Assembly (NCBI GenBank): GCA_948567375.1
Contig: OX419756.1
Span: 62,820,333-62,884,332 of the forward strand
From: Lunularia cruciata
Taxonomy: Eukaryota; Streptophyta; Marchantiopsida; Lunulariales; Lunulariaceae
Reading direction: 5' to 3'
DNA length: 64,000 nt
How positions within the stretch are numbered: position 1 is the first letter of the stretch; each line of letters begins with the position of its first letter. Both the position numbers and the translations under genes were made by a program. The notes below the pieces were generated by a model, which saw only the letters and a list, made by a program, of their open reading frames with translations, was not told the DNA's origin and ran no database searches. Positions 1 through 58,935 of the stretch are shown piece by piece.

Positions 1-79
1 TTGACAGTGATAGGTGCATGCAGGAGGTGTGATTTCTTGGTAGAAACTCAAAGTGACAAAAGATGAAGAAGCGCAACTC

Positions 80-87
80 TATAAAAA
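80..87 (+). promoter_or_regulatory. TATA-like box of the family-A LTR
   Basis: TATAAAAA lies 20 nt before the conserved ATG at 107. The same box in the same place is found in the LTRs at 21601-21610, at 13985-13991 (-) and at 58548-58555 (-). It is altered to CTCTAAAAA in the LTR at 26486-29609. A pol II start about 30 nt downstream would fall at or just after that ATG. Confidence 0.55.
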
Positions 88-106
88 TTGAACTTGCAAC
101 AATGAA

Positions 107-2683
107 ATGTCAAGTAATTTTGCTTTGCCGTTGAGAAGTCATCTTGCAGGTGATCATGGGAAGGGAAATAGAGTTGGAATCGTGTCAGTGCGCAAGGAAG
201 AAGTTGCGAGAGTGAAATCAAGAGAGAGTGAGAAGGTAGAAGAGATGGGAGGAGGAAAGAAGAACTCCAAATTTGTAATGAGAAATCATGCAATTCAGAG
301 GTTAGATGTAATAGCGAGTATCAAAGTCTTGAGCCGACTTTGGATCAATTTCTGGCATGGAACTAGAATGTAAGCTTTCCAGGATTCAAGACATAAATCA
401 TCGAGAGCAAGAGTCTCGATGGACCCAAGGAAGAAGGGAAGAGAGGAAATCTGGCTTGCTGGATAGAGTCGGATTGGAGACTTGTACTCGGGAAGGAGGC
501 AGGCTTGGAGCAGGGAGCCACGTTCTTGGGGAAGGGAGAGATAGCTCAAGAGACACATGAGGTGAGAGATGCCTTCTCATCAAAGAGGACAAAGAATGGG
601 TATAAGGTTGAGAGCTACAAAGACCCTGTGAAGAGAGGGATCGTGAGTGCCCTGATGGCTATCCTGAAGTCAGAACCACATATGTGATGAAACACCAAGC
701 GGTGTTCTTTCACAAGCTTTTCACAGGAGAACCAATCAATTGGGTGAGGTGTTTCCATGGGGGAACGAGGCAGATGGTGTGGAATTTGCAGGATAAGTCG
801 CCTCTACACTACATCGTGCTATTTGCAGCACACTTCTACCTTGGGCTCAACCTGCTGAACTTGGCGGAGCGGACTCGGATGGTGTCGCATTTCCATCCGG
901 ATCTACAAAAGGAAGTCGATGTGAAGGAGCATCAATACATCCTGCAGATCAGGAGCACTGATGACTACTATGCAAAGACGGGGAAGAATGTGGAAGTCAC
1001 AGTGAGTACCCCGACTACAAAGAAGAGGGGTCGGCAAGGTGAAGCCAAAGACATCAAGAAACCTCGGAAGACACGGAGAGGCAACCCGAGGCAAAGTATG
1101 GTGGTAATTGAGTCGGAGGACGAAGACTCATAAGAAGATGCCGAGCTCAAAACTGAAGACTTGGAACACAAGGAGGAGCCTGAGCTAATGCTGCAGAGTG
1201 GAGATACAAGCAGCGATAGTGATGAAGGGGGAGGAACAACATCGGTGCCAGCGGCTGAAGAATACAAAGAAGAAGAAGTGCAAGCCGAGATGGAAGTCGA
1301 AGACAACACATAGTTGGAAGATGAAGTAACTGTGCCCGAAGAAAAGAAGATCGCAGTATAGCAAGGAGTTTGCTCAAGACGTAAGGCGAAGTGTGAAGCG
1401 GGGCCGAATAAAGCAAAGGAAGAGGTAGGTGAAAGCTCGGGAAGTGAGGCTTCAATTCCGATACGAAGACTGCAGAGATGAAGGCGAGTATCGGATGAAT
1501 AGGAAGTACAAAGAGAAGTGGCCATACAAGAAGACATAACCCCGAGTGAAGGAATGGAGTACCTGCGGGAGAGTGTGTGTCCATTGTTGGTGAAATTGGA
1601 GCACAAAAAGAAGGAGATGCAGTCAACATGTCCAGAGGTAAAGACTGTATTGCAGGTGTTGGCCAGATTAGAAGACGAAAACTTGGAGTTGAAGAATAGT
1701 ATAACCCGAGGTGAGGAGGAAAGGGAAGTGCTGCGAGCGGAGGCAGTAGAGAGAAGTCAGGTAATTGAAGACCTGAAGAGAGAAGTCAGTTATCAAGAGG
1801 ATCTTGTGAGGAAGAGTGACATAGCAAGGGAGAGACAAGTAGTGGAGTATGAGATCTTGAAGCAACAGTTTGTTGATTCACGACTAGAAATTATCCATGC
1901 TATGATGAGGGTTGTAGAGAAGGAACAAGAGCTTGATAGAGTGATGGAGAGTGTAGAAGAGAAGAAGCAACTCTGAAAACGAGAGTTGGCAACACGATAT
2001 AGAGAAGAAGAAAGACTACAAAAATTACTTTGTAATCAGGAGGAGAGAGTTGTACAGAAGGAGAAGGAGAAGGAGACGGTGAAAGCCGAGTTTGAAGCGG
2101 AGTTGGTGATGTACCGAGAGGACTGGCTTGCAGATTGAGAGCGAGAGAGGAAGATGAGATTGGAGCCGTTGAAGGAGATTGTCCTCAGGATGAACGTGAT
2201 GTTGAGTACAGAGGCCAGCGTTCGAATTGAAGAGACAAGACTGCACGAGTGGAAGTTGTTGGTGCAGGAGACACAGCAAAGATAGACAAAAGACACTGAT
2301 TTGAATGCCTTGTTGATTAGTTTAAGGACTCGTGTAGATAGGAAGATATTAGAAGTAGAAGACAACATTTCAATTAGATTAGACTTAGTGAAAATAGAGA
2401 TAGAAAAGCTTCGGAAGGATGTTAGAGCAAAACCCAAGGTAGATAACATAGGAGTACAAATGTCTTCAAAGTTACCATTGGAGACATTAGAGAAGAGTGG
2501 ATGAGGAGATAAGAAGTTAGATAGATTACCCACTAGTGCAATTTCAAATCAGGAAAGAGAGTTGCTGGAATTGGTAGAGGAAGTAGAAGATATGAAACCC
2601 GAGGATAGAGTAGTAGGAAGTAAATTTACTTTGGGTTCAAGTTTAAAAGCCGAGGAAGAAGTAGACATCGGATCGGAGTAGTA
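107..2683 (+). pseudogene. LTR-internal coiled-coil ORF, broken copy
   Basis: This is the degenerate counterpart of the intact 875-codon frame at 11391-14018 (-). The order is the same: an N-terminal part beginning MSSNF, a globular part with HQAVFFHKLF and AHFYLGLNLL, the acidic segment VVIESEDEDS, and a long coiled coil rich in Glu, Lys and Arg. The longest surviving frame covers 684-1133. It is broken by a frameshift near 360-500 and by many stops, for example TAA at 1131-1133, TAG near 1312, 1359 and 1499, and TGA near 1975, 2137 and 2502. It is not functional. It lies wholly inside the 5' LTR. Confidence 0.85.
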
Positions 2684-3482
2684 ACAGATTTGAGATTTGA
2701 AGGGGCAGATATGAAGAGGTGCATTGTCATTTTGGATCTGTAGGTTAGAAAGGTTGTTGTAGAACGGTATAGTTGTTAGAACTGTTGATTGCTTCACTAC
2801 TTAAGAGTGGCAATCACAGTCAAATGTTGTTCAGTGCTCATTATTTCTGAGAATAGATAAAGCGAAGTGTGTGAAGTAGTGCTTGTCGCTTGAGCTTGAT
2901 TCCGAGTATCAACTTTGTGTCTGTGTTTGTGAGTGTGTGAAGAAATTTGAAGTGCAAGTCAATGTGCTTATTGGATGTTGGATTCCACAGCCTTGATCTT
3001 CATTCTATGTGTTTGATTGTGAGTGAAGTGCAATCAAAGCAATGCCTTGACAGATCTAAGAGGAATTGTAGTGTTGGTAGTATTTTGCATTTGTGAGTGC
3101 AATGCGAGGTTGATGTGAAGCAATTTTGATTTAGGAAGTTGTGCCTTCAGTGGAGGGGTGAAACACAATTCTGAGGCAAAGTTGTTTTGCAGTGAAGTGC
3201 CGTTTTTGGGAGAGCCTGAATCATCACAATCAAGATTGTTTGGAAAGATTTGATGGAGTTGTGATTATGGAGTGTTACTTTGTGACAAGATTGCAAATCA
3301 GTGCTTGTTACTCTCTTCTGGGTGTGGTTTCTACCTAAGAGATTAAAGACGCAATCAAGAAGAACTACATTGTTTCTGTTTGACTTCGTATTTGGAAATT
3401 TCTGACTTGTATCTCTGCGGGAACAAACTTTACTTACCTGATTACTGCAAAAGAGATATTTGTTGGGTTGTCACATGATTTT

Positions 3483-3500
3483 TGGTTCCACTGCCGGGGA
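3483..3500 (+). other. Primer-binding site of outer family-A element
   Basis: TGGTTCCACTGCCGGGGA begins 7 nt after the LTR end. From memory, the 3' ends of plant tRNA-Glu isoacceptors (CCCGGCAAYGGAACCA) are complementary to TGGTTCCRTTGCCGGG, which fits with about one mismatch over 16 nt. It would prime minus-strand DNA synthesis. tRNA-Asp, common in the Athila group, fits worse. Confidence 0.75.
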
Positions 3501-3563: not shown

Positions 3564-6267
3564 ATGTCTGCATCGAGAGAACAACGGGAAGAGAGAGCTC
3601 AAAGACGAGCACTTCAGCGTGAAAAAGACGAACATTTGAACGTCCCATCTCATCCACCGTTGACGAAACTGAACGAGAGGTGTTGGATTTTCAACTCCTT
3701 CAGGAAGTGCAAGAAGCCCTGCAAGAACTTGACCACAAGAAACGCCAAGGAGGGTGGCAAGGCTACTTTGCATCTCCCTCTTTGTCCAAGAAGAAGAAAG
3801 AATTGAGTGGGCAAACATATGCATTGTGGCCCAGTACACCAACTTCTCCTTGAGCTGTAAAGGAAGTTGTGTCCTTGAAGAACTTTGTTCAAGAAAAGAC
3901 AACACAAACACTTACTGAAGACAAGTGTCAACATCTTCTACGAACAATTCCTCGGTTGTCCCGAAGGAATTTTGAAGAACCAATCGAAGGTGTTGATCCT
4001 GAATCTTCCACTTGGGTTGAAGTCAACACCCTCATAGCAGAAATTGTCAAAGAAGACCCCACCTTGAATTTGACAAATTGGAACCCCTGGGCTGACAACA
4101 CGGCGTCAATACCAGCCAATCCTTTAGTTCCGTCAAGTTCAACACTACCTCATCCGATCCCAATGCATCAAAGGATGACTTCGCTGCCTATCACCCGACA
4201 CGCCTATTAGAAGTACAAGAGGACAGAACAAGACGAAGACCCCAATGAATTCATCAAAGAATTTGGAGTCATCTCCTTTGCTAACAAGGAGCATGACTCG
4301 GCGGATCGACTGAGAATTTTCCCAAGTTTGCTCTGAAAGAAAGCTCGGAGCTGGTACACCCATGTGACCCAGAAGGGGTTCATACCAGCAGACTGGGCAG
4401 ACTTGAGAAACAACTTCCTGGAACAATTCCGGGAGGTTGACTACAACACGAGTGTCTTCGCGGCACTCAACGATTTGGACCAAGGCAAGAAGGAGAAGTT
4501 GAGAGACTACTCTGAGCGGTTCATGGCACTATTGAACCAAGTTCCCAAGCAATCGGGGCTGGTGGGTTACTCCAATACCCAAGGCATTACCTGGTTCCTC
4601 GGGGGCCTTTCACCAAAGATACAAATCTTTGCAAGGGAGAGGAATGTAACTTCCCTGGACAAAGAACTCAAACATGTCGCTTGTTACCAAGCGGCTCACT
4701 CTCACTCTGCCGGTAACCGGAGAAATCGGGAGAAGAAAGGCAAGAAGCCCAGAAGGAGAGCTTCACGCAGTACATCCCCTTCTTCGGACAAATCCTCCAT
4801 TTCTTTGAGCTCTTCTTTGGAATCCGAAGAAGAATCAAAGCCAAGACGAGTCAGAAGATGTGGAGGCAAGAAACCAGTGACTCCTCCAGCAAAGAGTGTA
4901 AATAAGGTGGATACCAAGCTGGATGCCCTCATCAAGGAGTTTTCGATTTCAAGATCCAGATGATTGGGGCCAAAGACCAAAGGAAGGCCCCAGCGTTTGG
5001 AAGATCAAATGTATGGTGCACCGCATGTGGCAAATCAGGCCACGCCAACATAGAATGTAATACTTGTAATGCATTCACGGTGTAGCAATTTGGTTGGGTT
5101 CCGGGATGGAACCAAGACGAGGACGAAGAGGCTGTGTACCAAACGCAGGAAGTATAGCCTCAAGCAAGCATATCGTATCAAGGTCCAAGGTTTGGACCCA
5201 AGGAGTATAACCTCAATGCTCCTCCACAAAGACCACCAATGAGCAACCAAAATTGGCCTCAGAATGTTGCACCCGGAGCCTGTTATAATTGTGGCTTGAT
5301 GGGACATTGGTCTCCAAACTGTCCCGAGCCAAGAAGGCAAATTGGGTATGTTCCCCTGTGTGGAAATTGTAAAGGATCGGGGCAAACGGGCAACCAATGT
5401 CCTCACCCACCAAACCCGAAGCCGCGTGTAAAGTATGTACAGACCCCCGCTGAGCATGCAGCACTTCAGCCAAAGGGGGATACGAATGTAAATTGCATCA
5501 CTCTTGAGGAAGAAAGACCTCAAGAAGGGAGTCCGGCCTCAGAAGGAGAATGGCCGGACCTTGAAATTTTGAAAGTTGAGACACGCTCCAGTAAGAAGAA
5601 GCGTGATCTTGAAGAACTGAGTATGACCTTGTTGTCTTCCAGAAAGGCAAAGAGATTGCGCCCAAAGGCAATTCTTTCTGCCAAGGAGGAAAAGATCCTC
5701 AAAAAAGCCAAAGCTAAAGCCTTGCAGAAAGAACTAAAGGAGGCACTACCCAGGACTCGAGAATTGAGTTTGGAAGAGGAGACGAAGACTAAGTCTCCAG
5801 TTTTTTTGGCAGACATCCAATCCGAAGTAAAGGGTCTGATCCAAGCCGAGGTGGGCCAACCCGAGGAACCTCGGGTTAAGGCCATCAGCAAGCCCGTCAC
5901 CATTTTGAAGCGTCCCGAAGTCAAGAGGGAACATGGAGAGACTTTGGACCCAAAGCCGAAGGCAAAGACGGTCAAATTAGGAGGAGTTCCCCAATACAAT
6001 ATTGTAGCAGATCTGGCATCCACAAATGCCAACGTTACATTCAAGCAATTGTGGGAAGATAACAAGCTCTACAAGAGACAGTTGAATTCGGCCCTCAAGA
6101 AGGTGAGGTCGATGTCCAAGAAGGACCTGCCGGCTATCTATCGTATTGAGCAAGAAGATTTGGGATCTCCCGAGGTAGACGTGGAGATTGCAGGGTGCAT
6201 GATCACATCGATACCCATTGACTCTGTGTCTGGTGTGAATGTCATGACCAAAGATACTGCAAATTGA
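3564..6267 (+). pseudogene. gag: gag of outer family-A element, broken
   Basis: This would encode the capsid/nucleocapsid polyprotein of a Ty3/gypsy element. The first Met (MSASREQREER) lies 63 nt after the primer-binding site. A retrotransposon-gag-like capsid stretch follows around 4210-4700, then a basic Ser/Arg segment. Three zinc knuckles follow: one near 5018-5060 (CTACGKSGHANIEC), one near 5280-5321 (CYNCGLMGHWSPNC) and a third near 5359-5400 (CGNCKGSGQTGNQC) in which the His is replaced by Gln. Frame 5239-6267 is open for 342 codons and ends in a long charged region. Frameshifts near 3700, 4210 and 4330 and stops near 3855, 4961, 5083 and 5156 break it. Confidence 0.85.
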
Positions 6268-8004: not shown

Positions 8005-8716
8005 GTGCTGAATAGAAAGGTGTGTAGGCCAAATGGCTCCATGAAAAGATCTGAAATTTGCAGGGAGAGATATCCTAGAGTTGTGATCAAGTGTGAAAAA
8101 TTTCAGAGGATTGTGACATACTGGTTGGGGGATTTTAGTGACATTGTGAGGAAGGGTCAATTCTGCAGAGTGGAGATCTCATGCATGAGGAGTTTGAGAT
8201 CAACAAAAAGCATGTTTGAGTGTTTAGATTCATCTTGGGAACATGGAGGGTCATCAAGAGTGGAAATTGAGATAATGCAAGGTTCCTTAAGGGTTTGAGG
8301 TGATTGTAGGGGTGGATTTGAGGAAAAGAGAGTTTAGAATAGAATTTGAAGAGAGTGTTGAGAGGATCCAAAAACCTACACCACTTGGAGGAAAGAGTGA
8401 GTCTAAGTGCTTTTTGTATGGAGAGAAGAGACATAAGGCAAGTTCATGTCCATTGACCTTTGAGAGCAAGAGATTGAGAGAAAGGAGAGGCTTACTGGAC
8501 TTGGGTTTACATGTTGGACCTTCTTCACCAAGATTGGGAGGGAGAAGATCTAAGAGCAAGGAGTTGTGTGAGGTTTGTGGAGTTGAAGGACTTCCAAAAG
8601 GACATGAGTGTAGTGGAGTAAAATCACTTTTGGAGACTTTGGTGAAGGATCTTGGAGAGAGTCTTAGTACAGCTACAGAAATACTACCACCTTCATCAGC
8701 TAGTTCTCAAGATTAG
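8005..8716 (+). pseudogene. Family-B leader ORF with CCHC zinc knuckle, upstream of gag
   Basis: This is an extra reading frame between the primer-binding site and gag. It runs as overlapping frames 8005-8298 and 8300-8716. In the minus copy (about 29640-30050) the join reads through as VPQGFEVIV, so the TAA near 8290 is a local mutation. A zinc knuckle follows (SKCFLYGEKRHKASSC). Its second Cys is Tyr here but Cys in the minus copy (KCFLCGE). A second Cys/His cluster is CEVCGVEGLPKGHEC. Position and content recall the extra ORF upstream of gag in Ogre/Tat elements. Resemblance to DUF4283-zinc-knuckle proteins is a guess. Confidence 0.55.
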
Positions 8717-10596: not shown

Positions 10597-11390
10597 TGTG
10601 ACAACCCGGCAAATATCACTTTTGCGGTAATCGGGTAAGTAAAGTTCGTTCCCGCAGAGATACGAGTCAGAAATATCCAAATACGAAGCAAAGTAACAAT
10701 TTCAGTTCTTCTTGAGTTCTTCTTTAGTCTCTCAGGTAGAAACCACACCCAGAAGAGAGTAACAAGCACTGACTCGCAGTCTTGTCACAAATTAACACTC
10801 CATAATCACAACGTCATCAAATCTTTCCAAGCAATCTTGATTGTGATGATTCAGGCTCTCCCGAAAACGGCACTTCACTGCAAAACGACTTCGCCTCAGA
10901 ATTGTGTTCTACCCCTCCACTGAAGGCACAACTTCCTCGATCAAAATTGCTTCACATCAACTTCACACTACACTCACAAATGCAGAATACTACCAACACT
11001 ACAATTCCTCTCAGATCTGTCAAGGCATTGCTTTGATTGCACTTCACTCAAGATCAAACACACAGAATGAAGATCAAGGCTGTGGAATCCAACATCCAAC
11101 AAGCACTCTGACTTGCACTTTGAATTTCTCCAAACACTCACAAACACAATTACAAAGTTGATACTCGAAATCAAGCTCAAGCGACGAGCACTGCTTCACA
11201 GCACTTTGCTTTATCTATTCTCAGAAATAATGAGCACTGAACAACAATTTCCTGCGAATGCCACTCTTAAATAGTGAAGCAATCGACAGTTCTAACAACT
11301 ATACCGTTTCTACAACAACTGTTCCAACCTGTAGATCCGAAATGACAATGCACCTCTTCATATTTGCCCCTTCAAATCTCAAATCGGTTA

Positions 11391-14018
11391 CTAATCCGAT
11401 CGGATGTCTACTTCTTCCTCGGCTTTCAACCCTGAACCCGAAGTAATCTTACTTCCTACTATTCTGTCTGCGGGTTTCACAACTCTTACATCTTCTACCA
11501 GATCCAGCAATTCTCTTTCCTGATCTGAAATTGTACTAGCAGGTAATCTATCTAACTCTTCATCTTTCGACCCACTCTTCTCTACTGTTCCTGAGGCCAA
11601 CTCCAAAGACATTTGGATCCCGATGTCATCTACGTCGGGTTTTGCTTTAACATCCTGCCAAAGCTTTTCTAACTCTATTCTTACTAAGTCCAATCTAATC
11701 GCGATATTGTCTTCTACTTCTAAGATCTTCCTATCTACACGAGTTCTCAATTTAATCAACAAGGCATTCAGATCTGTATCTTTCGCTTGCCTTCGCCTCG
11801 TCTCCTGCACTAACAGCTTCAACTCGTGCAGACGCGTTTCTTCAATTCGAACGCTGGTCTGTGTACTTAGCATTGCGTTTACTCTGAGGACTATCTCCTG
11901 CAATGGCTCTAATCTTGTCTTCCTTTCTCGTTCCCGATCTGCAAGCCATTCCTCTCTGTACATCGCCAACTCTTCTTCAAATTCGGCCTTCACTGCGTCC
12001 TTCTCTTTCTCCTTCTGTGCAACCTTTCTTTCCTGATTACGAAGTAAGTCTCGTAATCTCTCTTCTTCTCCATATCTCACAGCCAACTCTCGCTGCCAGA
12101 GTTGCTTCTTCTCCTCCATACTCTCCATCACTCGATCGAGCTCTTGATCCTTTGATGCTACTCTCGCCATAGCATGGATGAGCTCTACTCTTGAATCAGC
12201 AAACTGCTGCTTCAAGATTTCAAATTCAGCTACTTGTCGCTCCCTTATGACATCACTCTTCCTCGCAAGATCCTCTCGATAGCTCAATTCTCTCCTCAGG
12301 TCTTCGATTACCTGACTTCTCTCCACTTCTTCCACTTGCAATACTTTTCTCTCCTTCTCACCTCGGGTTATACTCTTCTTCAACTCCGAGTTTTCTTCTT
12401 CTAATCTCGATACCACCTGCAATATAGTCTTTACCTCTGGACAAGTCGACTGCATCTCCTTTTTCTTCTTCTCCAACTTCACCAACAGCGGGCATACTAC
12501 CATCTGCAGGTAATCTACTCCATTAATGATACCTTCGTCCCCTCTCGGAGTAGTCTCTCTTCTTTCTTCGTGTTCTCCCGATTCTCGCCTTCTTCTCTGG
12601 AGCCTTCGTATTGGAATTGATGCTTCACTGCCCAAGCTTCCTTCTACTTCTTCTGTCACTCTACTCGGTCCCGCTTCCCCCTTTGCCTTACGTCTCGAGC
12701 GAATTCCTCGCTGTACTGCGATCTTCTTCTCCTTGAGCACCGGTACTTTGTCTTCCAGCGCTGCATTGTCTTTGGCTTTTACCTCGGCTTGAATTTCTTC
12801 TTCGTATTTTTCAGGCGTTGGTGCCGAGGTCATTTCTCCACCGACTTCACTATCACTGCTTGTATCTCCACTCTGCAATGTCAGCTCAGGTTCCTCCTCA
12901 CGTTCTGAGTCCTCCGTCTTGAGCTCGGCTTCACCTTCTGAGTCTTCATCTTCCGACTCAATCACCACCATTCCTCGCCTCGGGTTATTTTTCTGCATCT
13001 TCCGAGGTTTCTTGTTTTCTTCGGCGTCTGCTTGCCGAGTTCTCTTCTTCGTTGGGGTACTTTCAACGACCTCCACGTTCTTCCCTGTCTTCAAGTAGTA
13101 ATCGTCTGCGCTCCGGATTTGGAGAATGTATTGCTGCTCCTCCGCGTTGACTTCCTTTCGCACATCCGGATGGAAGTGCGACACCATCCGATTCCGCTCC
13201 GCCGAGTTCAGCAAATTGAGCCCGAGATAGAAATGCGCTGCAAACGGCACAATATAATGTGGAGGGGACTTATCCCGCAGATTCCACACCATCTGCCTTG
13301 TTCTCCCGTGAAAACACCTCGCCCAATTAATTGGTTCTCCTGCAAAAAATTTGTGAAAGAACACCGCTTGGTGTTTCATCACATAGGTAGTTCTCTCCGG
13401 CTTCAGGATTGCCATCAAAGCACTCACAATTCCTCTCTTGACAGGGTCTTTGTAACTTTCTACCTTGTACCCATTCTTCGTTCTCTTCGACGAGAAGGCA
13501 TCTCTCACCTCCTGAGTTTCTTGGGCTATCTCCCCTTTCCCCAAGAATGTGGCCCCCTGCTTCGAGCCTGCCTCCTTCCCGAGTACGAGTCTCCAATCCA
13601 AATCTGTCCAGTGCGCCGGATTTCCTCTCTTCCCTTCTTCCTCGGGACCATCGAGACATTTACTCTCGATGATTTCTGTCATGAATCCTGGAAAACTTAT
13701 GTTCCAATTCCATGCCAAAAAGGTGATCCGAAGTCGGCTCAAGACTTCGATCCTCGTTACTACATCTAATCTCCGAATTGCATGATTTCTCATTGCAAAT
13801 TTGGAGTTCTTCTTCCCTCCTCCCATCTCTTCTGCTTTCTTTTGGTCTCTCGATTTCTCTCTCTCGACTTCTCCCTTACGCACTAACCCAAGGCCAACGC
13901 TATGTCCCTTTCCCCGATCACCTGCAAGACGACTCTTCAACGGCAAAGGAAAATTGCTCGACATTTCGTCGTTGCAGTTTCGTTTTTTATAGAGTTGCAC
14001 TTCTTTGTCTTCCGTCAC
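11391..14018 (-). CDS. Intact LTR-encoded nuclear-type coiled-coil protein (875 codons), unknown function
   Basis: This is the only intact copy of the LTR reading frame. Residues 65-310 look globular and helical (HQAVFFHKFF near 216, AHFYLGLNLL near 261). Residues 324-341 are strongly basic (KKRTRQ...NKKPRK, possible nuclear signal). Residues 350-460 are acidic and Ser-rich (VVIESEDEDSEGE). Residues about 505-800 form a long charged coiled coil, and the tail is acidic. No enzyme motif was seen. Met1 overlaps the TATA-like box and is an unlikely start. Met19 (13964, MSSNF) and Met65 (13826, MGGGKKNS) are conserved in other copies and are better candidates. The frame lies wholly in the LTR. The globular part faintly recalls plant-transposon-associated domains. 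Function is unknown. Confidence 0.82.
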   Translation of the reverse strand: MTEDKEVQLYKKRNCNDEMSSNFPLPLKSRLAGDRGKGHSVGLGLVRKGEVEREKSRDQKKAEEMGGGKKNSKFAMRNHAIRRLDVVTRIEVLSRLRITFLAWNWNISFPGFMTEIIESKCLDGPEEEGKRGNPAHWTDLDWRLVLGKEAGSKQGATFLGKGEIAQETQEVRDAFSSKRTKNGYKVESYKDPVKRGIVSALMAILKPERTTYVMKHQAVFFHKFFAGEPINWARCFHGRTRQMVWNLRDKSPPHYIVPFAAHFYLGLNLLNSAERNRMVSHFHPDVRKEVNAEEQQYILQIRSADDYYLKTGKNVEVVESTPTKKRTRQADAEENKKPRKMQKNNPRRGMVVIESEDEDSEGEAELKTEDSEREEEPELTLQSGDTSSDSEVGGEMTSAPTPEKYEEEIQAEVKAKDNAALEDKVPVLKEKKIAVQRGIRSRRKAKGEAGPSRVTEEVEGSLGSEASIPIRRLQRRRRESGEHEERRETTPRGDEGIINGVDYLQMVVCPLLVKLEKKKKEMQSTCPEVKTILQVVSRLEEENSELKKSITRGEKERKVLQVEEVERSQVIEDLRRELSYREDLARKSDVIRERQVAEFEILKQQFADSRVELIHAMARVASKDQELDRVMESMEEKKQLWQRELAVRYGEEERLRDLLRNQERKVAQKEKEKDAVKAEFEEELAMYREEWLADRERERKTRLEPLQEIVLRVNAMLSTQTSVRIEETRLHELKLLVQETRRRQAKDTDLNALLIKLRTRVDRKILEVEDNIAIRLDLVRIELEKLWQDVKAKPDVDDIGIQMSLELASGTVEKSGSKDEELDRLPASTISDQERELLDLVEDVRVVKPADRIVGSKITSGSGLKAEEEVDIRSD
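13985..13991 (-). promoter_or_regulatory. TATA-like box of family-A LTR
   Basis: TATAAAA (read on -) lies about 20 nt upstream of the Met19 codon of the LTR frame and is conserved in position among LTR copies. It would make the LTR frame the first one on a transcript started in this LTR. Confidence 0.5.
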
Positions 14019-14172
14019 TTCGAGTTTCTACCGAGAAATCACACCTCCTGCATGCACCCATTACTGTCGCCTCACCTTCACGCGTATGAGCCGCCAATTT
14101 TGAAACCGCCCCTTCTTGAATTTCTGGCCCCGACGAAAGGTTGTTAGACTGTCTTTGCCTTGGGTTGAGCTC

Positions 14173-14183
14173 CCCCCCCCCCC
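14173..14183 (-). other. Variable homopolymer G run in LTR U3
   Basis: Read on -, there are 11 G before GAGCTCAACCC. The same place has 12 G at 15847-15858, 8 G at 21414-21421 (+), 6 at 29405-29410 and 5 at 58735-58739. It is a length-variable tract upstream of the TATA-like box. Confidence 0.7.
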
Positions 14184-14378
14184 GATCCAATTTACTTCGT
14201 ATCGTTTGCTGACACGGCATTTCAAAGTACTTCGCCTTATGACCCAAGGTCACTTTACTTCGGGTTTCACCCCAAAGACAGTTTTCATCGTCTTCTTCGG
14301 CCAACCAGGCACAATCCGACTTCTCTATACACTTCTTCTGCTTTATTTTGAAAAAAAAATAAAAATGTGGGCACCACA

Positions 14379-14392
14379 TACCCCCTCCCTCA
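14379..14392 (-). other. Polypurine tract before 3' LTR (family A)
   Basis: Read on -, GAGGGAGGGGG-TA stands directly before the LTR start TGTGG and overlaps the integrase stop codon. The equivalent tract is at 21201-21213 (+). It primes plus-strand DNA synthesis and fixes where the LTR begins. Confidence 0.82.
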
Positions 14393-15590
14393 AATGTGAG
14401 CGTCCCCGCGAACATAGACCTCGGGTGTCTTAGAAACTTCCGAGTCTATGGTCCAATATCTCCGAACTCTCCACCTGTTTACTCGAGTGGCAAAAGGATT
14501 ACCTTCCAAATCAACAAGTTGCAGGGATCCATTTTCGTAAAGATGATGAACTCGATAGGGACCCATCCATCGCAAATGCAACTTGCCTGGAAAAAATATT
14601 CGGCGATTATCATATAACAAAACCAAATCCCCTTCTCGTACAGTCACAGGCTTGATTCTCTGATCGTGCCTGAATTTCCGCTGTGCTTGTACTTCTTTCG
14701 TGGTTTGCATTGCATCGTCTCTTTTCTCTTGTAACCACATCAATTGTTGAATCCGAAGATCCTGACTTTCCTCTTCCGACATTCGTTCTTCGCACAGGAC
14801 TCGATAAGTCGGAACTTCAAATTCAACTGGCAGTATGGGGTGCAAGCCATATGTCAAGAAGTATGGAGTTTGTTTGGTTGTAATCTTCTCTGTTGTCCGA
14901 TAGGCCCATTACGCGGTTGGTAATTTTGTATCCCAGTCATAGGCATAATTGACAGTCACCTTATTCAAAATTTTACAAAGTAACCCATTCGCTTTTTCCG
15001 TTAAGCCATTCGCTTTTGGGTTATAAGGAGTCGTCTTCCGATGTTTAATCTGAAAATACTTGGTTAACTCCTCCATTACAGAGTTCAAAAAATGTGTTCC
15101 TCGGTCACTGACCAATTCCAGAGGACACCCATATCGGGAGATGATGTTTTGAAAGAAAAATTCCGCCACCGTTTCAGCATCATCTCTGCGAGTTGCTTCC
15201 GCTTCAACCATCTTGGTAGCGTAATCAGTGCAAACCAAAATATATCGCTTTCTTGTGACTCGGGTTACTGGTTGAATGGGACCCACAAAATCAATACCCC
15301 ATTTCTCAAAGGGAGCCAAAGGCAAAATTGGTTTCAAAGGCCATTGAGAAGTGGCCGTCGGCTTCCCTATTCTCTGACACGCATCACAGCTTCGAATATG
15401 AGCATGTACATCTTTGTACATTGTAGGCCACCAATACCCTGCCAAAAGAATTTTCTTTACAGTATTCTTCAGAGCATAGTGTCCTCCCGATGCCTCGGAG
15501 TGTAAAGATTCAATTACTCCTCCTACTTCGTATGACTCCAAGCATCGCCGAAGTACGTCATCTTCGCCCATCTTAAATAAAATGCTATTA
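14390..15590 (-). pseudogene. Integrase C-terminal two-thirds, family A
   Basis: The frame 15571-14909 carries the His-His-Cys-Cys zinc site (LHSEASGGH ... CDACQ) and the DDE core: Asp in KWGIDFVGP, Asp in LVSDRGTH, Glu in NGLTEKANG. After one TAA at 14906-14908 the frame continues to 14390 with the GPY/F C-terminal module (LRWMGPYRVHHLYENG). The stop abuts the purine tract. There is no chromodomain. The 5' end is joined to an LTR fragment at about 15592. Apart from the single stop it is the best-preserved integrase of this family here. Confidence 0.88.
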
Positions 15591-15592
15591 AA

Positions 15593-16059
15593 TCACCTGC
15601 AAGACGACTCCTCAACGGCAAAGGAAAATTGCTCGACATTTCGTCGTTGCAGTTTCGTTTTTTATAGAGTTGCACTTCTTTGTCTTCCGTCACTTCGAGT
15701 TTCTACCGAGAAATCACACCTCCTGCATGCACCCGTTACTGTCGCCTCACCTTCACGCGTATGAGCCACCAATTTCAAAACCGCCCCTTCTTGAATTTCT
15801 CGCCCCGACGAAAGGTTGTGAGACTGTCTTTGCCTCGGGTTGAGCTCCCCCCCCCCCCGATCCGAAGACAATTTACTTTGTATCGTTTGCTGACACGGCA
15901 TTTCAGAGTACTTCGCCTTATGACCCAAGGTCACTTTACTTCGGGTTTCACCCCGAAGACAGTTTTCGTCGTCTTCTTCGGCCAACCAGGCGCAATCCGA
16001 CTTCTCTATACACTTCTTCTGCTTTATTTTGAAAAAAAACAAAAAATGTGGGCACCACA
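15593..16059 (-). repeat. Truncated 5' LTR (first 467 bp), family A
   Basis: This repeats 13920-14378 and begins at the element edge with TGTGGTGCCCACA. It ends inside the start of the LTR frame (around residue 35), where it is fused to integrase sequence. It includes the TATA-like box. Confidence 0.88.
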
Positions 16060-21213: not shown

Positions 21214-21835
21214 TGTGGTGCCCACATTTTATTTTATTTTCAAAATAAAGAAGAAGAAGTGTATAGAGAATGCGGATTGCGCCTGTATGGCCAAAGAAGG
21301 TGAAGAAAAGAGTCTTTGGGATGAAACCCGAGGTAAAGTGACTTCGGGTCATAAGGCGAAGTACTCGGAAATGCCTTGTCAACATACAACCCAAAGTAAA
21401 TTATCTTCGTATTGGGGGGGGAGCTCAACCCGAAGCAAAGACAGTCTAACAACCTTTCGTCGGGGGGAGAAATTCAAGAAGGGACCGTTCAAAAACCGGC
21501 AGCCCATACGCGCAAAGGTTGATTGACAGTGATAGGTGCATGCAGGTGGTGTGATTTCTCGGTAGAAACTCGAAGTGACAAAAGACAAAGAAGCGCAACT
21601 CTATAAAAATTGAACTTGCAATGACAAAATGTCAAGTAATTTTCCTTTGCCATTGAGAAGTCGTCTTGCAGGTGATCGTGGGAGGAAATAGAGTTGGAAT
21701 CATGTCAATGCGCAAGGAAGAAGTCACGAGAGTGAAATTGAGAGAGAGCGAGAAGGTAGAAGAGATGGGAGGAGGAAAGAAGAACTCCAAATTTGTAGTG
21801 AGAAATCATGCAATTCGGAGGTTAGATATAATAGC
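21214..21835 (+). repeat. 3' LTR of outer family-A element, truncated
   Basis: It starts TGTGGTGCCC and follows the LTR pattern through the G run, the TATA-like box and the first codons of the LTR frame (MSSNF..., MGGGKKNS). It breaks at about 21835, where minus-strand family-B integrase begins. The remaining 3.1 kb of the LTR is not found at the other side. Confidence 0.87.
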
Positions 21836-22480: not shown

Positions 22481-23360
22481 GCTCCTCATCCGGGAAGGAA
22501 TCATCCATTGGCTCATCTCCATCATGATCATAGGCTCTAGATAAAAAATCAGCATTTGCATGTTTCTTTCTTGGCCTATCCTCAATGGTGTAGTCATACT
22601 CAGACAAGAGTATCATCCACCTTGCTAGTCTCCCTTCAACATTTGGCTTGTTGAAGATGTACTTCAAAGCCTTGTGATCCGTGACAATGGTGGCTTTCCC
22701 TCCAATCAAGTTATGTCTAAACTTCTTGAGACCAAAGATCACTACCAACCCTTCTCTCTCCGTGACAGAGTAGTTCTTCTCTCCTAAAACCATCTACCTA
22801 CTAGCATAAGCTATTGGATGATCATGCACATCTTGGTCTAATTGACTAAGAGTGCATCCTACTCAGAGAAGAGTATCATCCACCTTGCTAGTCTCCTTTC
22901 AACATTAGGCTTGTTGAAGATGTACTTCAAAGCCTTGTGATCTGTGACAATGGTGGCTTTCCCTCCAATCAAGTAGTGTCTAAACTTCTTGAGACCAAAG
23001 ATCACTGCCAACCTTTCTCTCTCCGTGACATAGTAGTTCTTCTCTGCTAGAACCATCTGCCTACTAGCATAAGCTATTGGATGATCATGCACATCTTGGT
23101 CTAATTGACTAAGAGTGCATCCTATAGCTACATTAGAAGCATTAGTGTAGAGGATGAAAGGCTACTCCAATCAGGTTTAGCAAGAATTGGAGCTACAACA
23201 AGGGATTGCTTGAGCTCCTCAAAAGCTTTGAGAGCCTCCTTGTCCTCCAAAATCACCATGTTATCTACACCCTTCTTCATGTAGATGGTCAATGCATAAG
23301 CATTGTTGGAAAATGAGAAGATGAACCTCCTATAGTATCCAACCATCCCCAAGAATTGGC
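22481..23360 (-). pseudogene. RNase H with internal 263-bp tandem duplication, family B
   Basis: RNase H motifs (VTEREGLVVIFGLKKFRH, IVTDHKALKYIFNKP) occur twice because 22597-22859 is repeated at 22860-23122 with scattered differences. 263 is not a multiple of three, so the duplication shifts the frame. The RT thumb motif GMVGYYRRFIF lies at the upstream end. Confidence 0.88.
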
Positions 23361-26485: not shown

Positions 26486-29400
26486 TGTGACAACCTAGCA
26501 AATATCACTTTTGCAGTAGTTGGGTAAGTAAAGTTTGTTCCCGCAGAGATACGAGTCAGAATTGGTCAAATACGAAGCAAAGTAACAATTTCAGTTCTTC
26601 TTGGTTGCGTCTTTAATCTCTCAGGTAGAAACCACACCCAGAAGAGAGTAACAAACACTGATTCGCAGTCTTGTCACAAATTAACACTCCTTAATCACAA
26701 ATCCTTCAATTCTTTCCAAACAATCTTGATTGTGATGATTCAGGCTCTCCCAAAAACGGCACTTCACTGCAAAACAACTTACACCTAAACCCTTATCTCC
26801 CGACCCACTCTTCTCTAATGTCTCTGATGGTTACTCTGAAGACATTTGGACTCCTATGTTATCTACTTCGGGTTTTGCTCTAACATCCTTCCGAAGCTTT
26901 TCTAACTCTATTTTCACTAAGTCTAATCTAATTGAAATGTTATCCTCTACCTCTAACACCTTTCTGTCTACACAAGTTCTCAGTTTTATTAACAAGGCAT
27001 TCATCTCGGTGTCTTTTGCTTGTCTTCACCTCGTCTCCTGCACCAACAGTTTTAACTTGTGTAGTCACGCTTCTTCAATTCAAACGCTGACTTCTATACT
27101 TAACATTGCATTCACCCTAAGGACTATCTCCTTCAATGGCTCCAACCTTGTCTTCCGTTCTCATTCCCGATCTGCAAGCCATTCCTTTCGGTACATCTCC
27201 AACTCTGCCTCAAATTCGGCTTTCACCGTCTCCTTCTCCTTCTCCTTCTGTACAACTTTCTCTTCCTGATTACGAAGTAATTCTCGTAATCAGTCGTCTT
27301 CTTTATACCCCGCAGACAACTCTCTTTGCCAAAGTTGCTTCTTCTCCTCCATACTCTCCATCACTCTATCGAGCTCTTGATCCTTTGCTGCTACCCTCGC
27401 CATAGCATGGATAAGTTCTACTCTTGAATCAGCAAACTGGTGCTTCAAGATTTCAAATTCAGCTACCCATCTTTCCCTTGCTATGTCACTCTTTCTCGCA
27501 AGATCCTCTCAATAATTTACTTCTCTCTTCAGGTCTTCAATTACCTGACTTCGCTCTACTGCCTCCGCTCGCAGTACTTCTCTCTCCTCCTCACCTCGGG
27601 TTATACCTCTCTTCAACTCCGAGTTCTCTTCCTCTAATCTTGATAAGACCTGCAAAACAGTCTTCACCTCTGGACAAGTTGACTGCGTCTCCTTCTTCTT
27701 GTGCTCCAACTTCACCAACAACGGGCACACTACCTCTCACAGGTAATCAACTCCATCACTGGCAACTACTTCTTCCCGCGGAGTGGTCTCTCTTTTCTCC
27801 TTGTGTTCTCCTGATACTCACCTTCTTCTGTGGAGTCTTTGTATTGGAATCAACGCCTCACTGCCCAAGCTTTCTTCTACCTCTTCCTTCCCTCTACTTG
27901 GCCCCGCTTCACACTTCAGCTTACGTCGCGAGCAAACTCCTTGCTGCACTGCGATCTTCTTTTCCTCGACCACCGGAACTTCGTCTTCCAATGGCGAGTT
28001 GTCTTTGGCTTCCACCTCGGCTTGCACTTCTTCTTCTTCCTTGTTAGCCGCTGGCACTGATGTCATCTCTCCTCCTTCTTCACTGTCACTGCTCGTATCT
28101 CCACTTTGCAATGTCAGTTCAGGTTCCTCCTCATGTTCCGAGTCCTCCGTCTTGAGCTCGGCCTCGCCTTCTGAGTCTTCATCTTCCGACTCAATCACCA
28201 CCATACTTTGCCTTGGGTTACTTCTTTGCATCTTCCAAGGTTTCTTTCTTTCTTCAGCTTCTCCTTGCCAACTCCTCTTCTTCGTTGGAGTACTTACTAC
28301 GACCTCCACGTTCTTTCCTGTCTTCGCGTAGTAGTCGTCCGTGCTCCGGATTTGGAGAATATATTGCTGCTCCTTGACATTGACCTCCTTTTGCACATCC
28401 GGATGGAAGTGCAACACCATCCGATTCCGCTCCGCCAAGGTCAGTAGATTGAGCCCGAGGTAGAAGTGTGCTGCAAACGGCACAATGTAATGTGGAGGCA
28501 ACTTATCCTGCAAATTCCACACCATCTGCCTTGTTCTCCCATGAAAACACCTTGCCCAATTGATAGGTTCTCCTGCAAACAACTTGTGGAAGAACACCGC
28601 TTGGTGTTTCATCACATAAGTCGTTCTTTCCGGCTTCAAGATTGCCATGAGAGCACTCACAATTCCCCTCTTGATAGGATCTTTGTAGCTCTCAACCTTA
28701 TACCCATTCTTTGTTCTTTTCGATGAGAAGGCATCTCTCACCTCCTATGTTTCTTGGACTATCTCTCCTTTCCCCAAGAACGTGGCTCCTTGCTCCGAGC
28801 CTGCCTCCTTCCCGAGTACGAGTCTCCAATCCGACTCTGTCCAGTGAGTCGGATTTCCTCTCTTTCCTTCTTCCTCGGGTCTATCCAGACACTTACTCTT
28901 GATGATTTCTGTCATGAATCTTGGAAAACTCACATTTAGTTCCATGCCAGAAAGGTGATCTAAAGTCGGCTCAAGACTTCGATCCTTGCTATCAAATCTA
29001 ATCTCCAAATCGCATGATTTCTCACTATGAATTCGGAGTTCTTCTTCCCTCCTCCCATCTCTTCTACTTTCTCACTTTCTCTCAATTTCACTCTTGCGAC
29101 TTCTCCCTTGCGCACTAACACGAGTCCAACTCTATTTCCCTTTCCCCGATCATCTGCAAGACAACTCCTCAATGGCGAAGGAAAATTGCTCGACATTTTG
29201 TCGTTGCAGTTTTGATTTTTAGAGAGTTGCACTTCTTCATCTTCCGTCACTTCAAGTTCCTACCGAGAAATCACACCTCCAACATGCACCTGTCATTGTC
29301 AATCAACCTTCGCTCGTATGAGCCGCCAGTTTTGAAATGGCCCCTTCTTGAATTTCTCGCCCCGACGAAAGGTTGTTAGACTATCTTCGCCTTGGGTTGA

Positions 29401-29609
29401 GCTCCCCCCGATCCGAAGACAATTTACTTTGGGTTGTTTGTTGATAGGGCATTTCTGAGTACTTCACCTTATGACCCAAAGTCACTTTACTTTGGGTTTC
29501 CTCCCGAAGACTCCTTTCTTCGCTTTCTTCGGTCATACAGGTGCAATCCGACTTCTCTATACACTTCTTCTCCTTTATTTTGAAAAAAACAAAAAATGTG
29601 GGCACCACA
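26486..29609 (-). mobile_element. Solo family-A LTR inserted in family-B leader
   Basis: The perfect duplication TATTT (26481-26485 and 29610-29614) brackets a unit that starts TGTGGTGCCC and ends GTTGTCACA in its own orientation. It contains no pol. It is 3124 bp long because about 0.65 kb between the 3' non-coding part and the end of the LTR frame is deleted at about 26783. Joining the flanks restores the family-B leader seen at 8670-8720. Confidence 0.93.
26790..29196 (-). pseudogene. LTR-internal coiled-coil ORF in solo LTR, broken
   Basis: This frame starts MSSNFPSPL at 29196 and shows the same order of parts. Residues equivalent to about 173-480 are open as 28741-27818, including HQAVFFHKLF and VVIESEDEDS. 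Stops near 28744, 27737 and 27510 and the C-terminal deletion inactivate it. Confidence 0.85.
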
Positions 29610-31617: not shown

Positions 31618-31898
31618 AGACATGCAACCCAATCCAAAGAACCTATAATAATTGTTCCTCGGGTTCAGCCAATCAAGAAAGTACATGTAAAGAAAGTGAC
31701 TACCTCAAGATCAAGAAGACATTTAGAGTGACAAAAAATAGACATGTAGAATTGTCATGTCAATTGAAGATTGATTGAAGAATGACCAATCAACAAAAGA
31801 CTATAAGATCAAGATGTCATCACATGCATTCTGAAATGTCACAATGATATCTTAGGCCTCTTAATAGTTGTCATGAAGGATTTAGCATCTCAGGTTTT

Positions 31899-32690: not shown

Positions 32691-32699
32691 ATACTCTCA

Positions 32700-33598: not shown

Positions 33599-33631
<33 letters not shown>

Positions 33632-35330: not shown

Positions 35331-35708
35331 AAGTCATCTCAGCTTTGGAATCCCCTAAAAACATTTGTGAGCTGAGAGCCTTGTTAAGACATGTTGGATG
35401 GTACAAAGGCTTCATATCAAATTACACGGCGCTTGCTGCACCACTAGCAAAGCTTTTGAAGAAGTCCAAAGACTACTTGTGGGAAGCAAAACACGAAGAA
35501 GCTTTCCAAGTGTTGAAGAAGAAACTGATTGAAGCACAAGTTACGAGGGCCCTAAATTGGGACGTACCTTTTCATGTGTATGTGGACACTTCATCCATGG
35601 CAATTGGAGTAGTCTTAAGTCAAGAGGATAAGACAAAGAAAGACTGTCCAATTTACTATGCTAGTTGGCAACTTTTAGTTGCAAAAAAGAATTATTTGAT
35701 GATTGAAA
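35327..35708 (+). pseudogene. RT thumb and RNase H start of A'
   Basis: LRHVGWYKGFI (thumb), FHVYVDTSSMAIGVVLSQ (RNase H first Asp) and YASWQLLVAKKNYLMIE are in one open frame. At about 35708 it changes directly into the LTR frame (CTNESGKMITNWRM) instead of continuing RNase H. Confidence 0.82.
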
Positions 35709-38300: not shown

Positions 38301-38305
38301 ACAAC

Positions 38306-40124: not shown

Positions 40125-40126
40125 TG

Positions 40127-55165: not shown

Positions 55166-58100
55166 TCTGACAACCCGGCAAATATCACTTTTGCGGTAAT
55201 CGGGTAAGTAAAGTTCGTTCCTATAGAGATACGAGTCAAAATTTCCAAATACGAAGCAAAGTAATAATTTCAGTTCTTCTTGAGTTCTTCTTTAGTCTCT
55301 CAGGTAGACACCACACCCAGAAGAGAGTAACAAGCACTGACTTGCAGTCTTGTCACAAATTCACACTCCTTAATCACAACTCCATCAAATCTTTCCAAAC
55401 AATCTTGATTGTGATGATTCAGGCTCTCCAAAAATGGCACTTCACTGCAAAATGACTTCACCTCAGAATTGTGTTCCACCCCTTTAATGAAAGCACAACT
55501 TCCTTGATCGAAATTGCTTCACATCAACCTCGCACTGCACTCACAAATGCAGAATACTACCAACACTACAATTCCTTTCAGATCTGTCAATGCATTGCTC
55601 CGATTGCACTTCACTCAGGATCAAACAAACAGAATGAAGATCAAGGCTGTGGAATCCAATATCCAACAAGCACACTGACTTGCACTTTGAATTTCTTCAC
55701 ACACTCACAAACACAATTGCAAAGTTGATACTCAAAATCAAGCTCAAGCAACGAGCACTGCCTCACAGCACTTTGCTTTATCTATTTTCAGAAATTATGA
55801 GCACTGAACAACATTTCTTTGCAAATGACACTCTTAAGTAGTGAAGCAATCGACAGTTTTAACAACTATACCGTTCTACAACAACTCTTCTAACCTGCAG
55901 ATCCAAAATGACAATGCACCTCTTCATATCTACCTCTTCAAATCTCAAATCTGTTACTAATCCGATCCGATGTCTACTTTGTCATCGGCTTTCAAACCCA
56001 AACCCAAAGTAAATTTACTTCTTACTTTCCTGTCCTCAGGTTTCATATCTTCTACCTCTTCTACCAGATCCAACAATTTTCTTTCCTGATCTGAAATTGC
56101 ACTAGTGGGTAATCTATCTAACTCTTCATCTCTCAAACCACTCTTCTCTAATGTCTCCACCGGTAACTCCAAAGACATTTGCACTCCTATGTTATCTACT
56201 TCGGGTTTTGCTCTAACATCTTTCTGAAGTTTTTCTATTTTAATTTTCACTAAGTCTAATCTAATCGAAATGTTGTCTTCTTCCTCTAAGATCTTCTTGT
56301 CTACACGAGTTCTGAGACTAATTAACAAGGCATTCACATGTGTATCTTTTGCTTGTCTTTGCCTCATCTCTTGCACCAACAACTTCAACTCATGCAGCCT
56401 CTTCTCTTCAATCCGAACGTTGGCCTTTGTACTCAACATTGCATTCATCCTGAGGACAATTTCCATCAATGGCTCCAATCTCATCTTCCTCTCTCGTTCT
56501 CGATCCACAAGCCAGTCCTCCCTGTACATTGCCAATTCTGCTTTGAACTTGGCTTTCACCGTCTCCTTCTCCTTCTCCTTCTGTACAACCTTCTCCTCCT
56601 GATTACAAAGTAACTCTCGTAATCTCTCTTCTTCCCTATACTGTGCTGCCAACTCTTGTTGCCAGAGTTGCTTCTTCTTCTCGACACTCTCCATCACCCT
56701 ATGGAGCTCCTGATCCTTTGCAGCTACTCTCGCCATAGCATGGATAACTTCTACTCTTGAATCAGCAAACTGCTACTTCAAGATCTCATACTCAGCTACT
56801 TGTCTCTCCCTTGCTATGTTACTCTTCTTCACAAGATCCTCTCGATAATGCACTTCTCTCTTCAAGTCTTCAATTACCTGACTTCTCACTACTGCCTCCG
56901 CTTGTAGTACTTCTCTCTCTTCCTCACCTCAAGTTATACTCTTCTTCAACTCCGAGTTTTCTTCTTCCAGTCTTGCTAATACCTACAACACAATCTTCAC
57001 CTCTAGACAAGTTGACTGCATCTCCTTCTTCCTGTACTCTAGCTTTACTAACAACGGGCACACAACTTCTCACAGGTACTCCACTCCATCACTAGCAACT
57101 ACTTCAACCTATGGAGTGATCTCCTTCTTTACCTCTTCTTCTCCCGATACTCACCTTCTTCTCTATAGTCATCGTATCAAAATAGACGCCTTGCTTCCCA
57201 AGCTTTCATGTGCTTCTTCCTTCACCATACTTGGACCTGCTTTGTACTTCACCTTATGTCTCGAGCGAACTCCTCTCTGCACTGTGATCTTCTTCTCTTC
57301 GGGCTTAGTTACATCGTCTTCCAACTATGTGTTGTCCTCGGCTTTGATTTCTACTTGCACTTCTTCTTCTTCTGTAGCAGCCAGCGCCAATGTCATTTCT
57401 CCTCCTTCATTGTTGTCGCTACTTGTATCTCCACTCTATAGTGTTAGCTTGGGCTCCTCCTTGTGTTTTGAGTCTTTGGTCTTAAGCTCGGCATCACCTT
57501 CCGAGTCTTCATCCTCCGACTCGATCACCACCATACCTCACCTTGGGTTGCCTCTCCTGGTCTTCCAAGGTTTCTTTGTGACTTCGGCTTCACCCTGCCA
57601 ACTTCTCTTCTTTGAGTTTGGAGCACTCACTTTGATCTCCACGTTCTTCCCTGTCTTTGTATAGTAGTCATCGGTGCTCCTGATTTGCAAAATGTATTGC
57701 TGTTCCTCGACATTGACCTCCTTTCTCAAATTAGGATGGAAGTGCCACACCATCCGAGTTCGCTCCGCCGAGTTCAGCAGATTCAACCCGAGGTAGAAAT
57801 GCGTTGCAAACGGCACGATGTAGTGTGGAGGCGATTTTTCCTACAAATTCCACACCATTTGTCGTGTTCTCCCATGGAAACACCTTGCCCAATTGATTGG
57901 TTTTCCTGCAAATAACTTATGAAAGAACACCGCTTGGTGTTTCATCACATACGTGGTTCTCTTTAGCTTCAGGATGGCCATCAGCGCACTCACAATTCCT
58001 CTTCATAGGGTCTTTGTAGCTCTTGACTTTGTACCCATTCTTTATCCGCTTTGACGAGAATGCATCTCTCACTTCTTGAGTTTCTTGAGCTATCTCTCCC

Positions 58101-58935
58101 TTCCCCAAGAACGTGGCCCCCTGCTCCGAGCCTGCTTCCTTCCCAAGTACAAGTCTCCAATCTGACTTTGTCTAACAAGCCGGATTTCCTCTCTTCCCTT
58201 CCTCCTCGAGTCCATCGAGACACTTGCTCTCGATGATTTCTGTCATGAAACCTAGGAGGCTCACATTCCTGTTCCACGCCAAGAAAGTGATCCAAAGTCG
58301 GCTCAAGACTTTGATCCTAGCGATCATATCTAACTTCCAAATTGGATGATTTCTCACTGCAAATTCAGAGTTCTTCTTTCCTCCTCCCATCTCTTCTGCC
58401 TTCTCACTATCTCTCAATTTCACTCTCACGACTTCTCCCTTATACACTAATGTGATTCCAACTCTATTTCCCTTCCCATGATCACCTGCAAGACAACTTC
58501 TCAACGGCAAAGGAAAATTACTCGACATTTTGTCATTGCAAGTTCGATTTTTATAGAGTTGCACTTTCTTTGTCTTTCTTCACTTTGAGTTTCTATTGAG
58601 AAATCACACCTCACATGCACCTGTCACTGTCAATCAACCTTCGCGCGTATGGGCCGCCGGTTTTTGAATGGTCCCTTCTTGAATTTCTCACCCCGACAAA
58701 AGGTTGTTAGACGGTCTTTGCCTCGGGTTGAGCTCCCCCGATACAAAGACACCTTACTTTGGGTTGTATGCTGACAAGGCATTTTTGAGTACGTCGCCTT
58801 ATGACCCAAAGTCACTTTACTTTGGGTTTCATCCCGAAGACTCTTTTCTTCACCTTCTCCGGCCATACAGGCGCAATCCGACTTCTCTATACACGTCTTC
58901 TTCTTTATTTTGAAAAAAAACAAAAATTGTGGGCA
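55166..58935 (-). mobile_element. Near-complete solo family-A LTR in the family-C frame
   Basis: The duplication ATGGT (55161-55165 and 58936-58940) brackets 3770 bp that is LTR only. The end near 55166 reads TCTGACAACC on + instead of TGTGACAACC. The other end has lost about 4 bp of TGTGGTGCCCAC. The rest matches 10597-14378 throughout, including a TATA-like box at 58548-58555. Confidence 0.9.
55957..58528 (-). pseudogene. LTR-internal coiled-coil ORF in solo LTR, broken
   Basis: It starts MSSNFPLPL at 58528 and is open to about 58172. The C-terminal 259 residues are open (56736-55957, ending VDIGSD like the intact copy). The middle has stops and frameshifts near 58165, 58000, 57840, 57440 and 56770-57100. 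Landmarks FYLGLNLLNSAERTRMV and EKEKETVKAKFKAELAMYRED are clear. Confidence 0.86.

Follow-up and report, generated by a model that had tools for sequence, protein, structure and literature searches.

A protein-coding gene inside the long terminal repeat of a Ty3/gypsy-type retrotransposon family from Lunularia cruciata

Long terminal repeats (LTRs) are usually viewed as control regions without coding function, and solo LTRs as relics that contain no gene. Here we describe a Ty3/gypsy-type retrotransposon family from Lunularia cruciata in which a sense-oriented protein gene of about 811 codons lies wholly inside an LTR of about 3.8 kb. The analysis covers one stretch of 64,000 nucleotides, called the window below (assembly GCA_948567375.1, contig OX419756.1, positions 62,820,333 to 62,884,332, forward strand). 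It follows up an initial annotation that had placed an 875-codon frame within the LTR of a plant Ty3/gypsy family. Four members of the family carry the argument (Table 1): A1, an element on the minus strand with a complete 3' LTR; A2 and E, two solo LTRs; and B, an element on the plus strand. A more diverged relative, element D, occupies 31618-40130 on the plus strand.

Table 1. Coordinates of the LTR, its gene and associated features in the window
Feature	Position	Strand	Supporting observation
Complete LTR (3,782 bp), 3' LTR of element A1	10597..14378	-	Polypurine tract at start; TAGTT duplication at outer edges of element 10597-16059; gap-free empty site
Likely gene, 811 codons, ATG at LTR 553 to TAG	11391..13826	-	dN/dS; third-position excess from LTR 553 on; conservation of ATG and stop
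Putative LTR promoter TATAAAA (LTR 388), 165 bp upstream of ATG	13985..13991	-	Present in 5/6 LTR copies; lost in A2 (26486-29609)
Conserved non-coding LTR tail downstream of gene	10597..11390	-	Alignable in D too
Polypurine tract GAGGGAGGGGG	14381..14391	-	GAGGGAGGGAG occupies the same place in element B
Integrase of element A1	14909..15571	-	PF00665 E 7.5e-14; PF17921 E 1.7e-13
Shortened 5' LTR of A1 (LTR 1-462)	15592..16059	-	95.5% identity to 3' LTR
Solo LTR A2, frame broken, ~660 bp missing	26486..29609	-	TATTT duplication; gap-free empty site; 11 stops
Solo LTR E, frame broken	55166..58935	-	ATGGT duplication; 13 stops
5' LTR of element B (from LTR ~311), frame broken	1..3475	+	83% identity to A1 LTR; 12 stops; cut by window edge
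Primer-site-like sequence of element B, TGGTTCCACTGCCGGGGA	3483..3500	+	7 nt past LTR end
gag region of element B, two open pieces	4337..6264	+	PF03732 E 9.1e-11; zf-CCHC E 1.9e-5
First ~620 bp of element B 3' LTR, including gene start	21214..21833	+	Sequence match to LTR

Boundaries of the LTR

The reference copy of the repeat runs from 14378 to 10597 on the minus strand. At its 14378 edge GAGGGAGGGGGTA immediately precedes TGTGGTGCCC, and the opposite end of the unit reads GTTGTCACA, so that the family shows TG...CA ends beside a polypurine tract. The sequence beyond the CA end is seen in element B, whose 5' LTR closes with ...TTGTCACA up to 3475 and is followed by a 7-nt spacer, the primer-site-like sequence starting with TGG at 3483, and then gag. 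The edges first proposed, a purine tract plus TG on one side and a CA end plus primer site on the other, are borne out in this way.

Target-site duplications of 5 bp stand exactly at the unit edges in all three insertions (10597-16059, TAGTT/TAGTT; 26486-29609, TATTT/TATTT; 55166-58935, ATGGT/ATGGT), as had been claimed, and nowhere in the window did we see them around a shorter repeat. Two of these insertions, 10597-16059 and 26486-29609, sit within copies of another element, family C. When the flanks of each are joined, they match uninterrupted copies in a gap-free alignment that runs through the insertion point (298 bp at 95.3% for the first, 300 bp at 95.0% for the second). The joined flanks of 55166-58935 gave a single match, of 118 bp at 67.8%, which does not extend across the junction, the target family being too diverged. 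Because the polypurine tract, the primer-site-like sequence, the duplications in three of three cases and the two gap-free empty sites agree, the identification of the 3,782-bp unit as an LTR, and with it the placement of the frame inside the LTR, is well supported.

The Ty3/gypsy assignment, also part of the initial annotation, follows from matches to gag, RNase H and integrase (PF03732 in B; PF17919/PF17917 in D; PF00665/PF17921 in A1 and B). The order of reverse transcriptase (RT) and RNase H before integrase is visible only in element D, whose arrangement is discussed below and whose open RT piece has no Pfam match at E 0.01. When the A1 integrase was compared with a large protein set, 400 proteins at E<=0.001 were found among 533 candidates scored. 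Among the best 120 of these 400, its closest named relatives are Riccia fluitans proteins at 70% identity and Marchantia polymorpha proteins at 68-78%, with Calypogeia fissa next at 60%, which makes a liverwort host likely.

A selected gene within the LTR

On the minus strand an open run at 11391-14018 extends over 878 codons from stop to stop, or 875 from a GTG. In 2,000 simulations of the LTR under a second-order Markov model, the longest open run, with both strands considered, had a median length of 184 and a maximum of 479 codons. The frame first reported is therefore real as an open frame; as the extent of the gene, 875 codons is probably too long. The ATG at LTR 553 (window 13826) is retained in all five copies that reach this point and the stop in three of three, and the gene probably starts at this ATG, giving 811 codons (13826-11391).

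The codon pattern points to the same start. Per-site differences by codon position in LTR 553-1350 amount to 0.114/0.067/0.260, an excess at third positions that holds against the diverged element D too (84/72/129 over 245 codons), and the pattern in LTR 415-552 is unclear (0.094/0.178/0.217). Comparison of the LTR copies gave no third-position excess in U3 or in the stretch after the gene stop, and in the 2-kb LTR of family C any codon pattern was neither strong nor consistent.

Selection on the protein is evident from the ratio of nonsynonymous to synonymous substitution rates (dN/dS). Across the six pairs of the four long LTR copies (817-871 codons compared per pair, stop codons excluded from the rates) it lies at 0.16-0.23 in the gene frame versus 0.74-1.33 in the two other frames, with dS between copies of 0.46-0.68; for comparison, the integrase gives 0.14-0.32 (three pairs; A1, B, D). 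The frame encodes a real protein, which was under purifying selection while the family spread, and the earlier claim that it is part of the LTR stands with the addition that it lies in sense orientation and was selected as a protein.

Between A1 and B, dS is 0.19 in the integrase and 0.61 in the LTR gene, and the LTR tail differs by 9.3%. The gene in these two elements thus seems to go back further than the sequence around it; since its dS is far above that of the integrase, the comparison suggests that gene variants were exchanged between subfamilies.

Other copies and neighbouring elements

The remaining long copies have decayed. In A2 the frame carries 11 in-frame stops and a 1-nt deletion, and a loss of ~660 bp has taken away its end. 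E has 13 in-frame stops and a 2-nt deletion; the start of its LTR, TGCCCACA, is displaced inward by 5 nt, and at the opposite end TCTGAC stands in place of TGTGAC. That two solo LTRs carry the frame without pol is thus correct for the LTRs themselves, which lack pol, and has to be narrowed for the frames, of which remains are left. Element B has frame sequence in its 5' and its 3' LTR, that is, on either side of gag-pol. The proposal that a full element holds the frame twice finds its counterpart here, limited to a partial, decayed 5' copy and ~620 bp of the 3' LTR.

The 5' LTR of A1 consists of the first 462 LTR positions only and is fused to the integrase; gag, protease and RT are missing. 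The junction at LTR 462 looks like a deletion with filler. A spliced RNA as its source was rejected, as the 13 nt after CAG are unlike the integrase-side sequence of B or D.

Several other sequences in the window touch on these elements. A third family is present in two copies, at 44341-44669 (minus strand) and 53861-54352 (plus strand), which are 66% alike over 541 bp and carry distant relatives (27-35%) of only the N-terminal domain of the LTR protein; solo LTR E is inserted in the copy at 53861-54352. A D-like LTR fragment at 61171-62744 contains the helix-rich C-terminal part of the frame and then the conserved tail, in the order found in the LTR. Family C has, at 8291-8713, an open frame that crosses the LTR end and includes a zinc-knuckle-like cysteine/histidine cluster; a minus-strand copy of this family holds a 263-bp tandem duplication, 95% alike, at 22594-23119. 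Scans of the window for tRNAs and Rfam families gave no matches.

The encoded protein

Searches with the protein returned few leads. Against Pfam the whole protein matched 0 families at E up to 1, and nine pieces of it gave weak, unrelated matches only at E up to 10 (best E 0.019); the plant extra open reading frame (ORF) families, namely the plant mobile domain PF10536, Transposase_28 PF04195 and Athila ORF-1 PF03078, showed no profile match to it, though a remote kinship with them may exist. There was no match among PDB sequences at E up to 0.1, and no relative among viral contigs or in a large protein set including liverwort proteins, where one search scored the 7,999 candidates with the most words in common with the query and in another 0 of 873 candidates lay at E<=1. 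One PHROGs match to a family of unknown function (E 0.018) was regarded as chance. Within the window, element D is related at 36-51% identity in the N-terminal part.

By composition, basic residues at 301-350 are followed by an acidic stretch at 351-400, and the C-terminal half is charged and poor in proline and glycine. The model of residues 495-830 shows very long helices, 191 and 69 residues in length, with a mean predicted local distance difference test score (pLDDT) of 77.8, 145 of 336 residues at >=90 and a predicted template modelling score of 0.28. In a heptad test 4 of 27 windows reached significance (p<0.05, uncorrected), each of them inside residues 485-680, so a coiled coil is likely in only part of the protein. 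The model of the N-terminal region, with a mean pLDDT of 40.3, was too poor for a structure search.

Position of the gene and its proposed mode of spread

Where in the LTR does the gene lie? The TATAAAA at LTR 388 is the sole TATAWAW in these LTRs, and the number expected per 165 nt is ~0.015 under a first-order model or 0.054 at the density of the window. Because this sole conserved TATA box precedes the frame, a position of the gene in R-U5 rather than U3 is favoured, not proven. The box, which stands near the LTR start, would be the LTR promoter, leaving a U3 of ~415 bp and placing the gene in R-U5. The gene would then precede all others on the genomic RNA and lie upstream of the primer site, and owing to this location ordinary reverse transcription would copy it into both LTRs at each transposition; such duplication is expected under the R-U5 and the U3 model alike. 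Every new LTR, including one left solo by recombination, would be a cassette of promoter and gene up to the point of its decay. Such an arrangement could have arisen simply, from an ORF0 that lay between primer site and gag and was absorbed into the LTR once priming had shifted downstream of it.

As for function, we can only guess at a nuclear accessory factor of the element. With its N-terminal domain, basic and acidic stretches and long C-terminal helices, such a protein might serve expression, relief of silencing or RNA export. Taken together, we regard a selected, LTR-borne gene in R-U5 that acts as a leader gene, with the nuclear accessory role as a guess, as the best explanation, at a probability of roughly 0.6.

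Several observations weigh against this explanation. An intact frame is found in only one long LTR copy (11391-14018, A1) and is broken in three of four, and the window contains neither an element with two complete LTRs nor one with two complete gene copies. Element D has no exact TATAWAW ahead of the frame. A gene in R-U5 would put gag behind 811 codons and a tail of ~790 nt, so that splicing, internal initiation or another promoter would be needed. The choice between R-U5 and U3 is drawn from DNA sequence, and the nuclear location is a guess from composition. Finally, pieces of the frame occur at three places in element D, covering residues 69-313 on its 5' side, 234-750 in the interval from RNase H to integrase, and 542-785 right after the integrase. 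D is thus a mosaic, entirely on the plus strand, in which gag, RT-RNase H and integrase are interspersed with parts of the LTR gene; because of this alternation, and because the parts overlap in the protein, we read D as a rearranged element, though its ancestor may have had the frame in an internal position.

The alternative that survives best keeps the gene inside the LTR and places it in U3, as in sag of mouse mammary tumour virus (MMTV). The TATA box at LTR 388 would be a private promoter of the gene, and the genomic RNA would start at a second promoter past the stop (LTR ~3106-3140), so that translation of gag-pol is unobstructed and the gene occurs once, near the RNA 3' end. The translation problem is thereby avoided, and A1 indeed carries TATTTAA at LTR 3106 with conserved sequence after it. 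However, this motif is confined to A1 (E and B read TACTTAA, D reads TTATTAA), and the conserved TATA box is the one at 388. The tail is strongly conserved, with a divergence from LTR 3001 on of 5-15% per 150-bp window versus 14-50% at gene third positions from LTR 601 on; this fits U3 and can be explained under R-U5 as well. RNA structure is not evident in the tail, with z-scores of 150-nt windows between -2.0 and 1.0 and mostly near 0 in four copies. We consider the U3 placement possible, if on the unlikely side.

A foreign gene or insertion that was trapped once in an ancestral LTR and merely carried along, with no role for the element, would agree with the lack of relatives outside the window in the databases searched. 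It is very improbable in view of a dN/dS near 0.2 maintained over dS 0.46-0.68, and frame pieces recur in the diverged element D and the N-terminal domain in a third family. Hardly tenable is a short true LTR with the frame as an ordinary internal extra ORF. The pieces in D right after the integrase and between RNase H and integrase speak for it; a frame between integrase and a short LTR was not seen as such, and D remains a caveat on this point. For the A1/A2/B/E family the arrangement is ruled out by duplications and empty sites that enclose the 3.8-kb unit in full, two of the three cases being free of pol, and frame sequence lies on either side of gag-pol in B. A chance open frame in purine-rich DNA, for which the GC and AT skew of the region might be cited, has a negligible probability and is ruled out by the simulations at the LTR's own second-order composition and by the codon pattern and dN/dS.

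The leader-gene explanation can be carried further, to a version that we offer tentatively and think unlikely to hold in full. This would be a bryophyte Ty3/gypsy lineage whose LTR is a self-contained gene of promoter, 811-codon gene and leader, copied twice per transposition and left in solo LTRs, having arisen as the primer site moved downstream of an ORF0. Its protein, supplied by any LTR that is intact, would work in trans, for instance against silencing, whereby solo LTRs and pol-less copies like A1 would go on supporting the family.

Comparison with known systems

The closest parallel outside plants is sag, a superantigen gene in the U3 of the LTR of MMTV, an animal retrovirus. The likeness is a complete protein gene inside the LTR, in both LTRs of MMTV, and to this extent the comparison drawn in the initial annotation holds. 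It differs in that our case concerns a plant Ty3/gypsy family and ~811 codons, and perhaps also in position, as the TATA box favours R-U5 over U3; the proteins are presumably unrelated.

Centromeric retrotransposons of CRM group A, which also belong to the plant Ty3/gypsy elements, have LTR-internal coding sequence in that their 3' LTR takes in the tail of pol, and only this part, with the CR motif (PMC3059260). They have no separate gene, so that a CRM solo LTR would be without a complete one (PMC3059260). Unlike such a pol extension, the gene in A1 has its own start and stop, and a polypurine tract, the TATA box and >500 bp of LTR lie between the integrase and its ATG. The rice elements Retrosat2, RIRE3 and RIRE8 carry a fast-evolving ORF0 upstream of the gag-pol frame, and Retrosat2 has an LTR of >3.2 kb with a TATA box near its start (PMC3485330). 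An extra fast-evolving frame upstream of gag and a long LTR with an early TATA box are thus shared, whereas ORF0 is described as lying apart from the LTR and the present gene lies inside it (PMC3485330).

A review assigns plant extra ORFs to the internal region and locates most of them after pol, ahead of the 3' LTR (PMC7264820); a survey sorted them by 5' or 3' part and strand (PMC6317226). They resemble the LTR gene as family-wide frames of unknown function beside gag-pol, but in the available portions of these sources none is described as inside the LTR, and the LTR gene is not in the internal region (PMC7264820, PMC6317226). The Cassandra terminal-repeat retrotransposon in miniature has a functional sequence of its own in a plant LTR, a 5S rRNA-like region transcribed by RNA polymerase III, and differs in encoding no protein there (PMC12786077). 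The LTR gene shares features with each of these systems and matches none: it is a protein gene, complete and separate, that lies inside a plant LTR. The initial annotation had known of no well-described plant case; likewise, open-access literature, which leaves most subscription papers outside its coverage, showed no complete gene inside a plant LTR.

Conclusions

With a selected gene of this size in the LTR of a plant element, solo LTRs can count as coding loci, and annotation that masks LTRs would overlook such a protein family. An element of this kind can raise the copies of an accessory gene above the copy number of gag-pol. The case also bears on how an LTR can grow, namely by a primer site shifting past a gene.

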